This document shows, piece by piece, positions 52,227 to 59,017 of a stretch of DNA of 64,000 nt (its first letter is position 1; every line of letters begins with the position of its first letter). The stretch spans positions 29,958 to 93,957 of the IMG/VR virus record IMGVR_UViG_3300002143_000153. One strand, given 5' to 3'. Under the pieces are notes generated by a model. That model had not been told where the DNA came from. It worked only from the letters and a program-made list of their open reading frames with translations, and made no database searches. This DNA comes from a virus. Position numbers and translations under genes: made by a program.

Positions 52227-52910
52227 TTATTTAATTTCAAATACATTTCCATTACTACTCAATTTACCAAACTTACCATCAGTAACCACAGAACCATTTG
52301 AGAATATTGTATCTAAGTCTGGTATTGTTCTAGTACCAGCATTAATAATATCACTGCAATTATGGATATGTCCAAACATTATAAATTTAGGATTTACTTC
52401 TATAACTCTATTCAATAATGATTTATCACCACAATGCTCCATACTACCAACTCTATCATAAGATAAATCTAACATACCCTTTGGAGGTCCGTGAACAACA
52501 ATAATATCAACATCTTCATCTATAACATTTCTCCACATTCGTTCTAATTTATTTCTATCCTTATTAAACGACCAACCATATCCAAATGTTGGAGTGTAAG
52601 GTGAACCAAATATCTTTAAACCCTCTATTTTGATAGTTTCATTTTCAAGATAGTGAATACCACGATCATTAAAATCTGATTTAGTAACGAACTTCTTCTC
52701 AATACTAGTATCATGATTACCAGCTACAAATACCTTATGATGTATAGGTAAGTTAGCAAACCAATCTATAAAGGCTCTAACTTCAGGTTCATTATTATAA
52801 GGATCTCTTGGATTACTACAATCACCACTAAAAATAACCATAGCAACACCTTCAGGTATTTCTAGTAAGTCATGGAATGTGTGTGTATCACTTATATGCC
52901 AGATTTTCAT
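52227..52910 (-). CDS. Calcineurin-like metallophosphoesterase
   Basis: 227 residues. The metallophosphatase blocks are in order: SDTH (Asp8, His10), SGDCS (Asp30), GNHD (65-67), VVHGPP and GHIH. All metal ligands are present, so hydrolysis of a phosphodiester or monoester is expected. The substrate is unknown; similar phage enzymes act on cyclic nucleotides or DNA/RNA ends. Confidence 0.88.
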   Translation of the reverse strand: MKIWHISDTHTFHDLLEIPEGVAMVIFSGDCSNPRDPYNNEPEVRAFIDWFANLPIHHKVFVAGNHDTSIEKKFVTKSDFNDRGIHYLENETIKIEGLKIFGSPYTPTFGYGWSFNKDRNKLERMWRNVIDEDVDIIVVHGPPKGMLDLSYDRVGSMEHCGDKSLLNRVIEVNPKFIMFGHIHNCSDIINAGTRTIPDLDTIFSNGSVVTDGKFGKLSSNGNVFEIK

Positions 52911-53266
52911 TTCTTAATTTTAAAATTTTCCAATTTTTCTACTAACTCTTCCATTGTATATTTAGGTATATCAAAACCTCTTGTCACTCCATTTGAATCT
53001 TTGAATGTTAATTCATTACCATTTGAATCCCTTGTGCATTTATAACTATATCCATCTGAATCTTTGTAGGTTAATATCTTACCATTTGAATCTCTTGTAT
53101 ATTCATCACTAAATCCAGTTGAATCTTTGTGGGTTAATTCATTGCCGTTTGAATCGTAGGTGCGTTCCCAAATAAATCCATTTGACAATTTACGATACGC
53201 ATAAACTCTAACGCCATTCTTGTTGTATAGCTTTAAGCTCTTTTTTTTTCCTAATACGTTTTTCAT
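52907..53266 (-). CDS. DSNG-repeat protein
   Basis: 119 residues with about four 20-residue repeats of the form YxRDSNGxxLTYKDSDGYSY (residues 25-100), ending RGFDIPKYTMEELVEKLENF. The repeats resemble short RHS/MORN-like strands. Paralogue of the next gene. Function unknown; repeat number may vary by recombination. Confidence 0.7.
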   Translation of the reverse strand: MKNVLGKKKSLKLYNKNGVRVYAYRKLSNGFIWERTYDSNGNELTHKDSTGFSDEYTRDSNGKILTYKDSDGYSYKCTRDSNGNELTFKDSNGVTRGFDIPKYTMEELVEKLENFKIKK

Positions 53267-53570
53267 TTTATTTTATAATCTTAAATTTTCCAATTTTAGC
53301 TATCAATTCCTTCATTGTGTATTCGGGAATATCAAAGCCTCTTCTTTCTCCATCTGAATTTTTATATGTCAACTCCTTACCCTTTGAATCTCTGGTGTAT
53401 TCATAACTATAACCATCTGAATTTTTATAAGTTAGCTCTTTACCATTTGAATCTCTTGTGTATTCACAACTATATCCTTTTGAATTTTTAAGGGTTAGTA
53501 TCTTACCATTTGAATCATATGTGACTTCAGTATATTTATGATTACCCTTTGAATCATATGTATTTTTATA
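52960..53570 (-). repeat. Coding repeats shared by the two DSNG genes
   Basis: Units of 60 or 66 bp encoding YTRDSNGxxLTYKDSDGYS, more than eight copies across two adjacent genes. Confidence 0.7.
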
Positions 53571-53642
53571 ATAATCATAAACTTTTTTACCGTCCTTGTT
53601 CAATAGTCTTAAGTTTTCTTCTGTTCCTAATACGTTTTTCAT
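53268..53642 (-). CDS. DSNG-repeat protein, paralogue
   Basis: 124 residues; starts MKNVLGTEENLRLLNKDGK and ends RGFDIPEYTMKELIAKI, closely matching its neighbour at both ends, with similar internal repeats (SKGKELTYKNSDGYSYEYT style). A recent tandem duplication. Possibly a surface or receptor-like decoy protein; speculative. Confidence 0.7.
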   Translation of the reverse strand: MKNVLGTEENLRLLNKDGKKVYDYYKNTYDSKGNHKYTEVTYDSNGKILTLKNSKGYSCEYTRDSNGKELTYKNSDGYSYEYTRDSKGKELTYKNSDGERRGFDIPEYTMKELIAKIGKFKIIK

Positions 53643-54816: not shown

Positions 54817-54843
54817 GAGTATGCTAACGGTAATAGCATACTC
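54817..54843 (-). other. 10-bp hairpin beside structured element 1
   Basis: GAGTATGCTA (54817-54826) pairs with TAGCATACTC (54834-54843) with a 7-nt loop. No U-tract. Confidence 0.6.
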
Positions 54844-54861
54844 ATAGTTTAATCATGAGTT

Positions 54862-54896
54862 TACCATCTGCTCACACTTCAAAAATGAGAATGGTA
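54862..54896 (-). ncRNA. Structured RNA element 1 (reduced form)
   Basis: TACCAT (54862-54867) and ATGGTA (54891-54896) close the outer stem; CTCA (54871-54874) and TGAG (54886-54889) form the inner hairpin. The large constant arm of elements 2-5 is missing, and the loop lacks the GGG seen in elements 2-4. The 3' flank (plus sense) ACATTAATTAAT matches element 2. Confidence 0.55.
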
Positions 54897-54984
54897 CATT
54901 AATTAATCACTTTAATCCCCTATAACGGATAACTTATGATATATGGTTACTACACCAGTTTGTATTATCAATACTTATTTATCC

Positions 54985-55009
54985 AAAGAGGTGATAAAAT
55001 CCTCTTTTT
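54985..55009 (+). terminator. Intrinsic terminator reading +
   Basis: AAAGAGG (54985-54991) and CCTCTTT (55001-55007), followed by Ts. It lies between structured elements 1 and 2, so a + strand transcript from this region is possible. Confidence 0.6.
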
Positions 55010-55070
55010 AATCTACTGTTGCCTTTTGGCTTTAAGAGTATCAAGCAGTAAGATTTACTTGACACAATAG

Positions 55071-55163
55071 TACCCTCTGCACTCAGTTGTAAGGACTAGA
55101 TGCATAATCTCTAGTATTATTTCCAAACTTACAACTGCTCACCCTTGGGAAGTGAGAATGGTA
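55071..55163 (-). ncRNA. Structured RNA element 2
   Basis: Three stems: outer TACC (55071-55074)/GGTA (55160-55163); constant arm CAGTTGTAAG (55084-55093)/CTTACAACTG (55128-55137); small hairpin CTCAC (55138-55142)/GTGAG (55152-55156) around CCTTGGGAA. The insert inside the arm has its own ACTAGA/TCTAGT stem. Plus-sense positions; flanking genes are on -. Confidence 0.7.
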
Positions 55164-55169
55164 CATTAA

Positions 55170-55421
55170 TTAATTCCTATTTATATCTAGGTTGGTTATC
55201 AAATCAGGAGTCATACCAAATTCAATAGCTTTAACTTGCAAATCACTAAGTATATATGATGTTGCAATGAGTTTAGGAACATAACCCATATTGGTTAAAG
55301 TTCTTTCAAATATAGAAGACAGTGTGTCAATAACAATGACAGCTGTGTTATCAATTGTATTCAAGTATAAGTTATACATAGTAAGTACAGCTTGGTTTTG
55401 TGTTGTTGTTAATTCTTTCAT
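55170..55421 (-). CDS. Small hypothetical protein inside the RNA cluster
   Basis: 83 residues: MKELTTTQNQAVLTMYNLYL then DTLSSIFERTLTNMGYVPKL. Helical, no motif. Flanked by structured elements 2 and 3, so element 3 would be in its 5' leader on the - strand. Confidence 0.55.
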   Translation of the reverse strand: MKELTTTQNQAVLTMYNLYLNTIDNTAVIVIDTLSSIFERTLTNMGYVPKLIATSYILSDLQVKAIEFGMTPDLITNLDINRN

Positions 55422-55455
55422 AAGTTTATTTTCTTTTATTATTTGATTGGTTAGA

Positions 55456-55632
55456 TACCCTCTGCACTCAGTTGTAATAGAACAGCCATTTTCAGCCTGT
55501 ATAAGTGTCTGCTTTCAAGACATAAACTTGGTCAATTATCATAGGATGCATATTTCCCTTGCCTGATAACATACTGAAGTCAACACTTTTTATTCTATTA
55601 CAACTGTCTCACCTTGGGAATGAGAAATGGTG
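55456..55632 (-). ncRNA. Structured RNA element 3
   Basis: Outer TACC (55456-55459)/GGTG (55629-55632); arm CAGTTGTAATAG (55469-55480)/CTATTACAACTG (55595-55606), 12 perfect bp; small hairpin TCTCA (55607-55611)/TGAGA (55621-55625) around CCTTGGGAA. The insert is 114 nt. Compared with element 2 the small stem is changed on both sides. Confidence 0.7.
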
Positions 55633-55640
55633 CATTACTT

Positions 55641-55749
55641 AGTTGTAATCCGTATAACATAAATACTATTCTCAACAAAACAGTGATTGCTGCTTTACAT
55701 GCTTATGAATAATCTGAGTTCTTGTTAATACTAATTAAGAATTACAACT
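55641..55749 (-). other. Extra AGTTGTAAT inverted pair between elements 3 and 4
   Basis: AGTTGTAAT (55641-55649) and ATTACAACT (55741-55749) repeat the core of the constant arm. They could pair with each other or with the arms of the two neighbours, giving alternative folds. Confidence 0.5.
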
Positions 55750-55752
55750 TAA

Positions 55753-55931
55753 TACCCTCTGCACTCAGTTGTAATAGGTTTTTAGTGTGTAGAATGTTTC
55801 ATGAATTAAATGAGCCGTAATTTCCAACTATTACTGTCCGACCAGTTTATAATTGCGCTTCTGTTTAATATCATATATCTACTTATCACTGTCTATTACA
55901 ACTGCTTATCCTTGGGAAATAAGTTGTGGTG
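55753..55931 (-). ncRNA. Structured RNA element 4
   Basis: Outer TACC (55753-55756)/GGTG (55928-55931); arm CAGTTGTAATAG (55766-55777)/CTATTACAACTG (55893-55904); small hairpin CTTAT (55905-55909)/ATAAG (55919-55923) around the same CCTTGGGAA. Both sides of the small stem differ from elements 2 and 3 with pairing kept. Insert 115 nt. Confidence 0.7.
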
Positions 55932-55941
55932 CATTAGTAAA

Positions 55942-56121
55942 AATAGTACTGTTGTTTTATCCTAATAACATTTCTGGAATGACCAAAGAAGTTGATTAAC
56001 GTTGATATGAGCTTATTACCCCTTATCTATAGTTGAGGTAATATTCTAAGTATTAGTGACAATTTATTAGAATTGTCCTAATCTTCTTTGGATATCTTTA
56101 TTGTTAGGTAACAGTACTATT
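55942..56121 (-). ncRNA. 180-nt nested multibranch RNA
   Basis: AATAGTACTGTT (55942-55953) pairs with AACAGTACTATT (56110-56121), 12 perfect bp. Inside, CCAAAGAAG (55983-55991) pairs with CTTCTTTGG (56083-56091). Inside that, TATTACC (56014-56020)/GGTAATA (56037-56043) and GACAATT (56058-56064)/AATTGTC (56071-56077) form two hairpins. No reading frame fits. Confidence 0.7.
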
Positions 56122-56131
56122 AGTTTGTTTA

Positions 56132-56362
56132 TTAAAAAGGAGTTTCTACAACTCCCTCATTCCAATAGCCTAATGCTAAAAACTTTTTACCATCTCTGGT
56201 TAAAGTTATGACATCAAAGCCATTAACATCTGTTGCTACTAATTCTGCAGTATCCCAATGTATTATACCAAGAAACTTTCCAGTTAGTGTTTCTGAATCA
56301 GTATCAACTAAATGAATTAGTTGAATAGGTTCTTTTTTTAATAGGTTTATTATTTTTACCAT
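56132..56362 (-). CDS. Small hypothetical protein inside the RNA cluster
   Basis: 76 residues: MVKIINLLKKEPIQLIHLVD, then GKFLGIIHWDTAELVATDVN and NEGVVETPF. Strand-rich; small barrel possible. Follows a gene-free stretch of over 900 bp. No known family. Confidence 0.55.
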   Translation of the reverse strand: MVKIINLLKKEPIQLIHLVDTDSETLTGKFLGIIHWDTAELVATDVNGFDVITLTRDGKKFLALGYWNEGVVETPF

Positions 56363-56429
56363 TTCTTTCTTTATTTAAATTGTTAAAAAATTACAGAGTT
56401 CGGGTTAGTATTGATAGATATTGAATAAA

Positions 56430-56550
56430 ATATCAAGTATGCTGAACCGCTTCAGCAGATTTTATCGTGTGTGAGCATATAGTAGTTATCTGCAGATTCT
56501 AACTATACTCTAGGAGGTTGGCGGGCTTTTCCTCTTTTTATACTTGATAT
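56430..56550 (-). ncRNA. Structured RNA closed by an 11-bp stem
   Basis: ATATCAAGTAT (56430-56440) pairs with ATACTTGATAT (56540-56550). Inside are GCTGAA (56441-56446)/TTCAGC (56451-56456), directly stacked on the outer stem, and a TAGTTA/TAACTA hairpin. GGAGGTTGGCGGGC lies in the remaining single strand. Confidence 0.6.
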
Positions 56551-56560
56551 AAGTTTTTAT

Positions 56561-56678
56561 ATACACTCAGTTGTAATACCAATAAGGGTTTTAGACTACT
56601 ACATTAGAGTTTCGTCTGCACCTATTTGATCATTAACTTATTACAACTGCTCACTCTGATTAAGTAAGTTATGGGTAT
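56561..56678 (-). ncRNA. Structured RNA element 5 (diverged)
   Basis: Outer ATAC (56561-56564)/GTAT (56675-56678); arm CAGTTGTAATA (56568-56578)/TATTACAACTG (56639-56649); small hairpin CTCACT (56650-56655)/AGTAAG (56663-56668) with one mismatch. The 5' CCCTCTG and the loop GGG are both absent, consistent with a CCC-GGG contact in elements 2-4. Confidence 0.6.
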
Positions 56679-56682
56679 TAAA

Positions 56683-56745
56683 AAATTAGACAGTTTCACT
56701 TCGCATTATATCTGTCTAGAACCCCGCTTCTAGGGTTTTAATTTG
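56683..56745 (+). other. Overlapping hairpins with a terminator-like end
   Basis: TAGACAG/CTGTCTA, then two exclusive hairpins: CTAGAA/TTCTAG, or AACCC/GGGTT followed by TTTTAATTT. The pair could switch between a terminator and an anti-terminator on the + strand. Confidence 0.4.
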
Positions 56746-56998: not shown

Positions 56999-57028
56999 AA
57001 CCAGAACTAAAATTACAGAGTTCTGGTT
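56999..57028. other. 10-bp perfect hairpin
   Basis: AACCAGAACT (56999-57008) pairs with AGTTCTGGTT (57019-57028), loop of 10 nt. The 3' arm belongs to the direct repeat also found at 56390. Confidence 0.6.
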
Positions 57029-57062
57029 AATATTGATGTAAACTCCTATATAGAGATACATA

Positions 57063-57297: not shown

Positions 57298-57570
57298 CTA
57301 GTGAGCCCAGAACATATTGGGTATTACTTCACCCTCTTTGTTCTTAACAGCTTTGTCTGTGAGTACTAGTGGTAACGCATCACCTACTTGTATGCTCATT
57401 TGAGCAGCGGTTTCTGCACTTACTGCAGTAAAGCCGAATGACACATCATTGCTTTGTACACGAACTTCAGTTTCAACTCCGCCAATTATTTTGATTTCCG
57501 TTGTCTGGCCCAACGGTGCAGTAGTAGATACTATACCTTTTCTACTCTGCGTGAATTTGTAAAAATACAT
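57298..57570 (-). CDS. Small beta-rich hypothetical protein, paralogue of the gene at 58733
   Basis: 90 residues from ATG 57570 (MYFYKFTQSRKG), matching the start MYYYKTTKTNKG of its paralogue; upstream ATGs at 57720 and others lie in a tandem-repeat leader and are rejected. The two proteins share the order GFTA(V/I)S ... GD(A/E)LPL ... NMFWAH/NLFWAH. Small all-beta protein of unknown role. Confidence 0.7.
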   Translation of the reverse strand: MYFYKFTQSRKGIVSTTAPLGQTTEIKIIGGVETEVRVQSNDVSFGFTAVSAETAAQMSIQVGDALPLVLTDKAVKNKEGEVIPNMFWAH

Positions 57571-57582
57571 GCAATATTTAGT

Positions 57583-57697
57583 TGGGGAGAGGGACTGGAA
57601 CAAAAGGGGGGAGAGGGATTGAAACATGTTTGTGCTATGTAATAGTTGCAATGTCAGGGTTAAGTTAGTGCTATGTAATAGTTGCAGTGTCAGGGTT
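57583..57697. repeat. Tandem repeats in the leader of the 90-residue gene
   Basis: Two copies of GTGCTATGTAATAGTTGCA-TGTCAGGGTT (57632-57661 and 57668-57697, 36-bp period) and two copies of GGAGAGGGAYTGRAAC next to them. They fill the 130-nt 5' leader. Confidence 0.75.
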
Positions 57698-57699
57698 GG

Positions 57700-57727
57700 A
57701 AAAAGGATGCTGTTACACACCCTTTTT
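57700..57727 (-). terminator. Terminator-like hairpin after the alpha-CTD-like gene
   Basis: AAAAAGG (57700-57706) pairs with CCTTTTT (57721-57727); the inner sequence TGCTGTTACACA matches the terminator at 58125-58148. Confidence 0.7.
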
Positions 57728-58732: not shown

Positions 58733-59017
58733 TTAGTGAGCCCAGAATAGATTAGGTATAATCTCTCCAGCAGAATTCTTTACAGGTTTGTCTGTAATGG
58801 TTAAAGGTAGCTCATCACCCTTAACTAAGACCATCTTAGCTACAGCTTTAGGGCTAATAGCAGTAAAACCGAATCTCATACCATCTGTGTCAGTACGTTG
58901 CTGTCTGACCTCCACGTTGTAGCCACCAATTTCTTTGATGACAATTTCTTGTTCTGTAAGAGGATGTTCTGAAGTTACTAGTCCTTTGTTAGTTTTTGTT
59001 GTTTTGTAATAATACAT
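58733..59017 (-). CDS. Small beta-rich hypothetical protein, paralogue of 57298
   Basis: 94 residues: MYYYKTTKTNKGLVTSEHPL, FGFTAISPKAVAKMVLVKGD, then NLFWAH at the end. About half of the positions match the paralogue. First gene of the - block after the divergent gap. No known domain. Confidence 0.65.
   Translation of the reverse strand: MYYYKTTKTNKGLVTSEHPLTEQEIVIKEIGGYNVEVRQQRTDTDGMRFGFTAISPKAVAKMVLVKGDELPLTITDKPVKNSAGEIIPNLFWAH

Follow-up and report, generated by a model that had tools for sequence, protein, structure and literature searches.

Probable variant twister ribozymes bearing exchangeable structured inserts between phage genes

Introduction

The window described here, a 64-kb stretch of DNA out of a 94-kb virus record, carries five related elements that are, as judged by sequence comparison, probably variant type-P1 twister ribozymes lying on the minus strand in the gaps that separate small phage genes of the same orientation. 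Elements 2, 3, and 4 are apparently intact copies of the variant, and elements 1 and 5 appear to have decayed. To our knowledge, little has been established about what small self-cleaving ribozymes do naturally in bacteria and phages. The phage is considered to be a distant crAss relative because a 1908-aa ORF in the window is similar to a putative RNA-polymerase subunit of crAss-like Bacteroides phages (23% identity over 30% of the length, E about 1e-15).

Results

Distribution of the elements

An earlier note on the window had described the elements as a repeated family of folded RNAs and had suggested a search for further copies together with a test for covariation. Scans of viral contigs indeed yielded several hundred relatives, with helices that covary beyond their shuffled controls. 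A 15-nt arm pattern matched at least 120 viral contigs, and among the matches listed the arm pair is present in about 112 of 120 contigs. Given this frequency and the fact that the helices exceed their shuffles, the repeats are not due to chance. Further scans provided 360 distinct arm-insert-arm modules, about 290 of which have contextual support, and beyond these 360 there are additional type-A elements (defined below) with other arms. The named phages and plasmids scanned gave no element match, and one MAG contig was matched among the genome contigs scanned. The carriers of the elements are diverse. A relative of the window's DNA polymerase is found in 20 of 50 carrier records, and the window's 1908-aa protein is matched by 9 of 40 carriers.

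RNA fold and strand

The arrangement referred to as type A is, in order, P1, UAA, UGCA, CC, A(C,U)AA or AUU, P4, UUCCCAAGG, P4', P5...P5', AG, UGCA, GA, GGG, and, at the 3' end, P1'. In elements 2-4, when read on the minus strand, these components are a UAA cleavage loop, P2 (UGCA/UGCA), P4 (CUCAC/GUGAG), the loop UUCCCAAGG, and GAGGG, and the variable insert is housed in a long P5 arm (CAGUUGUAAU...AUUACAACUG).

Covariation was evaluated with 151 type-A elements chosen without any pairing condition, the UAA being required by the selection, and with 500 shuffles. P4 is paired in 99.6% of the cells against a shuffled maximum of 74%, with 247 double-changed cells as compared to 85 or fewer in the shuffles. 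The T1 pseudoknot occurs as CCC/GGG in 113 elements, CAC/GTG in 18, and CCA/TGG in 10, with 29 double changes versus a shuffled maximum of 11; in its CCC-GGG register it exceeds the 500 shuffles, whereas slid registers do not. P2 displays 12 double changes (no more than 4 in the shuffles), and P1 is 64% paired (shuffled maximum 53%). The dinucleotide GA follows P2' in 143 of the 151 elements, and L4 is UUCCCAAGG, UUCACAAGG, or UUCCAAAGG in 144 of them. A nearly gapless alignment of 43 sequences, designated A1, the rows of which were pre-selected for P2, P4, T1, and T2 and the inserts of which were replaced by GAAA, has 92.4% of its cells paired and a covariation of 0.51 versus 0.17, a level reached by none of the 500 shuffles; again, slid registers collapse. 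The CC and GG at the T2 positions are present in every type-A element, which makes pairing possible but invariant, and they may form a second pseudoknot.

The P5 arm varies and yet remains paired over many unrelated arm sequences, some of which are plain hairpins. An invariant P5 sequence was considered and set aside as being largely an artefact of the search pattern: when a P5-blind pattern was employed, 13 of the 25 new elements had that sequence.

With ORFs called mechanically, the element shares its strand with both flanking ORFs in 77 of 125 cases; for the downstream ORF alone, agreement with the element's strand is seen in 104 cases and disagreement in 11. The strand of the next gene coincides with that of about 90% of the assignable elements. 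Within the helices, G-U combinations outnumber A-C by about three to one (140 versus 46). From the excess of G-U over A-C and the sense bias it follows that the structure is selected as RNA, on the window's minus strand. The comparisons thus establish the fold and its sense orientation at the level of sequence. The covarying fold and pseudoknot proposed in the earlier note are strongly supported; the functional strand is opposite to the one on which they had been read.

The earlier note had named, as its main alternative, a mobile-element-like repeat bounded by terminal inverted repeats. A DNA-level, MITE-like element with CAGTTGTAAT termini and variable content would be in keeping with the presence of several copies in a genome, with the perfection of the inverted repeats, and with the near-identical inserts found in unrelated contexts. 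As an explanation of the whole, however, it is exceedingly improbable in view of the G-U excess, the covariation of the pseudoknot across the repeat, the replacement of the inverted repeat by many other paired sequences, and the presence of the same inserts in other stems. Where fixed terminal inverted repeats and no strand preference mark MITE/TIR elements, varying arms and a sense bias were found. What does stand is the exchange of inserts between elements.

Relationship to twister ribozymes

Twister ribozymes contain the essential stems P1, P2, and P4, an optional P5, a T1 interaction between L4 and L1, and a UA cleavage step (PMC5408937). In the present family all three stems are supported by family-level covariation, the CCC of L4 pairs with the GGG of L1 to provide T1, and the conserved L1 and L4 nucleotides (the UA step, GA, and CCCAA) are retained. 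P1 is weak in the window copies, with 2 of 6 positions paired in element 2; twister has been reported to be active even without P1 (PMC5408937). Like type-P1 twister (RF03160), the elements have P1/P2/P4 with an optional P5, the UAA/GA internal loop, the CCC-AA loop, and T1. They differ from it in the long P5 with structured inserts, in the replacement of the A-rich 3' side of L2 by P5, in having a second form in which a large insertion separates P4 from the loop, in falling below Rfam detection, and in T2. Whereas in twister a conserved GC in L2 pairs with L4 to form T2, here T2 is CC/GG and the consensus GC is not matched.

The Rfam twister-P1 model gave no match to the elements at E up to 10 with permissive thresholds, and no Rfam family matched the elements or the inserts when the window and the element loci were searched. 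In the reciprocal direction, a covariance model built from A1 and designated R1 finds the canonical twister at L146:3713-3781 (25 bits, E 7e-5), along with window elements 2, 3, 4, and, weakly, 1; the canonical twister of L078 was not reported by the R1 search. Because the reciprocal search works, the failure of Rfam to detect the elements is regarded as a limit of its model. Canonical twister-P1 sequences score 48.5 bits in contig L078 (855-923) and 57.0 bits in contig L146 (3715-3779), relative to an Rfam cut-off of 67.2, and both of these contigs also carry variant elements, near which the canonical copies lie. The canonical twisters of L078 and L146 share with the variants the core UAA-UGCA...UGCA-GA. 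The earlier note had known of no described RNA class with this arrangement, but the arrangement corresponds to a twister ribozyme whose P5 arm is enlarged, though missed by the Rfam twister model. No published report of this twister subclass was found in the open-licence literature.

Other small ribozymes occupy the same intergenic regions, and their structures are unrelated. Pistol ribozymes and a sub-threshold RAGATH-1 hammerhead lie near elements (L220 3922-3985, L044 1398-1457, and L099 2710-2795), and L220 also carries freshwater-1 RNA. The theta (HDV-like) ribozymes of gut phages are small, are found between genes of uncultured phages, and in some cases lie beside tRNAs (PMC10879173). 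The elements resemble them in their intergenic phage siting but differ in fold, and tRNA adjacency is rare: a tRNA is directly downstream in only about 8 of 255 elements, which led to rejection of tRNA processing as the main role. In the regions searched there was no Rfam HDV match, and neither the HDV-like double pseudoknot nor the tRNA siting typifies the elements. In contig L027, ARAGORN calls a tRNA-Stop (suppressor-type) that lies on the strand of the element at position 1936, about 107 nt downstream of it.

Copies and neighboring features in the window

The repeats described in the earlier note are real. In four elements (2, 3, 4, and 5), CAGTTGTAA and its exact complement flank inserts of 36-121 nt; element 1 lacks both the constant arm and the insert. 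The observations that the small stems of elements 2-4 are altered on both sides around an unaltered loop, and that CCC and GGG are jointly lost in elements 1 and 5, were likewise borne out.

All five copies are on the minus strand. Element 2 (55067..55174) has an intact core with its P5 arms and insert at 55084-55137; R1 matches it with 62.5 bits (E 2e-16), and its fold z is -2.6. In contigs L052 and L142, its insert is carried, with compensatory changes, by the loop arm of second-form elements. Element 3 (55452..55643), again with an intact core, has P5 and insert at 55469-55606. R1 matches the 5' part of this element (29.9 bits) and does not span the long insert; a type-A element in L406 matches this insert at 98% identity along 100 nt. 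In the intact element 4 (55749..55942; P5 and insert 55766-55904) the 5' part is similarly matched by R1, with 31.9 bits. The segment from 55722 to 56412, which includes element 4, is 90.6% identical to L378. Element 5 (56552..56686) is a decayed scaffold in which the loop is UUAAUCAGA and GAGGG is lost; its P5 and insert (56568-56649) are kept, the latter with a close relative in L179. Element 1 (54837..54907; R1 18.6 bits, E 0.007) is a remnant consisting of the 5' half (UAAUGUACCA and P4) fused to CAGAUGG. The absence of its P5 and insert is compatible with a deletion between GCAG repeats.

A sixth module, which has no ribozyme, lies on the minus strand between elements 3 and 4 and immediately upstream of element 3 (55640..55756; stem AGUUGUAAU/AUUACAACU; fold z -1.9). 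It is 71-77% identical to P5 inserts of L219, L220, L227, L236, and L285. Another structured non-coding module on this strand (56410..56552; fold z -3.1) displays ~81% identity to parts of L261, L013, and L068. Upstream of element 5 is a conserved minus-strand segment with an AGACAG..CUGUCU hairpin (56690..56741), the fold of which is not significant alone (z -0.7); the region 56633-56741 is 79-85% identical to L102, L195, L019, and L108. The window modules 55640-55754, 56410-56552, and 56633-56741 are likewise shared with other contigs.

The region had been thought almost gene-free, but it contains two small minus-strand ORFs with homologues elsewhere. The first, of 83 aa (55170..55421), lies between elements 3 and 2 and has a tblastn homologue in L097 (E 1e-12). 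The second, of 76 aa (56132..56362), lies between elements 5 and 4 and has a 98.7% identical homologue in L378. Pfam and PHROG searches gave no match for either.

Several other repeats were observed in the window. Two tandem paralogous ORFs of 119 and 124 aa at 52907-53642 (minus strand) are built of YTRDSNGKELTYKNSDG-like repeats. A paralogous pair of small ORFs is located at 57298-57720 and 58733-59017, and relatives of both are present in L018 and L070. Two 34-nt repeats, GTTNGTGCTATGTAATAGTTGCARTGTCAGGGTT, are found at 57628-57697 with a spacing of 36 nt, beside GGGGAGAGGGAYTGRAACA repeats. A 29-nt repeat, AAAATTACAGAGTTC.GGTTA.TATTGAT, occurs at 56387-56415 and 57009-57037, and the segment 56995-57034 also matches L378.

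A second form and other scaffolds

In the second form, type B, TTAATCAGCTCCCAAGG lies upstream of P5 and the element seemed incomplete. The idea that type B is a different RNA was rejected when, for 39 of 64 candidates, the missing 5' half (AATGCACCA...CTCAC) was located 97-237 nt upstream; several of the others are ordinary type A or degenerate. Here 54-231 nt are inserted between the 5' strand of P4 and the loop and are arranged as two hairpins. Hairpin a consists of GUGG or GUAG, AUAUAAAGACUUC...UGUGAAA, and CCAC or CUAC, with closures of GUGG/CCAC in 21 cases, GUAG/CUAC in 12, and GUGG with CUAC in 2. Hairpin b is CUGAUUAA...UUAAUCAG. Across the insertion, P4 is paired in 98.3% of the cells, with 12 double changes, whereas the shuffles average 1.2 and reach at most 9.

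In type C, a continuous helix takes the place of the UAA/GAGGG loop, as in L020 (CCCUUUGCAC/GUGCAGAGGG), and in still other scaffolds the insert is enclosed by a plain stem (L127 and L143). Type C and the plain-stem scaffolds should not cleave. These housings, the decay of elements 1 and 5 with conservation of the element 5 insert, and the departure of T2 from the consensus could indicate that the elements in general are scaffolds that derive from twister but have lost cleavage, the fold being kept only for display of the insert or as a structured 5' UTR. This explanation is nonetheless unlikely: UAA, GA, and T1 are retained in nearly all type-A copies, T1 with compensatory changes, and a mere scaffold would need neither the pseudoknot nor the active-site letters.

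The inserts

The 392 insert instances fall into about 280 families. As compared to mononucleotide shuffles the inserts fold better, with a mean z of -1.2. When 54 families were compared with consensus structures predicted from their own sequences, 72 double compensatory changes were counted as against 20 breaks. For 164 of the 392 instances a relative is present in an independent context, with a median identity of 94%; the inserts of window elements 2, 3, and 5 have relatives elsewhere. In ten insert pairs, one of them involving window element 2, one member resides in the P5 arm and the other in the loop arm. One insert is found in different scaffolds with unrelated flanks, namely type A in L030, type B in L042, and a plain stem in L127, and another is shared by L041 (type A) and L104 (type C). 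Comparative data accordingly demonstrate both the structured nature of the inserts and their recurrence in unrelated contexts.

Guide or target recognition, about which the earlier note had speculated, finds no support, as the inserts are RNA domains that are structured and show compensatory changes. Those outside of standard elements proved to be structured domains in other housings, with no antisense targets seen among them, and a search for enriched k-mers among the inserts revealed no clear common motif.

For 83 of 120 same-insert pairs there is no neighboring-gene homologue in common. Inserts are swapped regardless of the neighboring gene. This argues against a cis function specific to one gene, and cis-regulation of a particular gene is not supported. 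Nor was support found for the notion that inserts are exchanged more than their surroundings: equal-length windows upstream and downstream of the elements, taken as a control, are shared between contexts about as often as the inserts. The intergenic regions are therefore mosaics in general, and insert sharing alone is not special.

In engineered twister riboswitches, aptamers have been attached on P1 or P5 (PMC5052635). The present elements are similar in that a foreign RNA domain resides on twister P5; they differ in being natural, in having hundreds of domains, and in having no known ligand. That each insert is an aptamer controlling cleavage via P5, the elements being natural aptazymes, would be in keeping with this use of P5 as one of two engineered sites, with the conservation and compensatory changes of the inserts, and with the frequent location of the elements directly upstream of ORFs. 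Such ligand gating is very unlikely, however, since the same insert occurs in core-less scaffolds and beside unrelated genes, and about 280 families would be many for ligands.

A tRNA T-arm sequence (GGTTCRANTCC or similar) is present in three P5 inserts, at L162 10155, L258 12571, and L060 5816, and in hairpin a of L023. These inserts look tRNA-derived or tRNA-like and are not called as tRNAs by ARAGORN. A further family (L108 901, L146 5040, L103 4361, and L403 8922) has several unrelated closing stems and the strongly conserved core CTGTCAC..GATGACAGC..GAAAA.ATCGCCAAAG.TGTGGGG or close to it, and is a candidate for an RNA class of its own.

Discussion

If the elements are twister ribozymes, the nascent minus-strand RNA would fold and cut itself between the U and A of UAA, with predicted cleavage sites at 55168^55167 (U^A) in element 2, 55637^55636 in element 3, and 55936^55935 in element 4. 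Such cutting would split a polycistronic transcript. The upstream product would end in a 2',3'-cyclic phosphate, and the downstream mRNA would carry a 5'-OH and begin with the folded ribozyme, the insert domain projecting on P5. The insert would be an accessory RNA domain independent of the ribozyme; that it does not need the ribozyme is indicated by the occurrence of the same domains in scaffolds without a catalytic core. Among its candidate roles, protection of the 5'-end of the downstream mRNA is ranked first, followed by decoy or ligand binding. A broader proposal, offered tentatively and held to be less probable than not, is that of a modular RNA display in which these phages keep a large, horizontally shared set of small structured RNA domains (the roughly 280 families). 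A self-cleaving twister would accept them in its P5 arm and in its loop insertion, and three-way junctions without catalysis would accept them as well. Every domain would have its own job, such as decoy, ligand sensing, or transcript protection.

The elements would represent a numerous twister subclass, missed by Rfam, that lies between phage genes and bears exchangeable structured domains; one form of the ribozyme has a large insertion beside the conserved catalytic loop. With the elements described, it can be tested whether ribozymes of this kind separate phage mRNAs by cleavage and what function the attached domains serve. As the elements also show, non-coding DNA in these phages can be organized as a mosaic of structured RNA.
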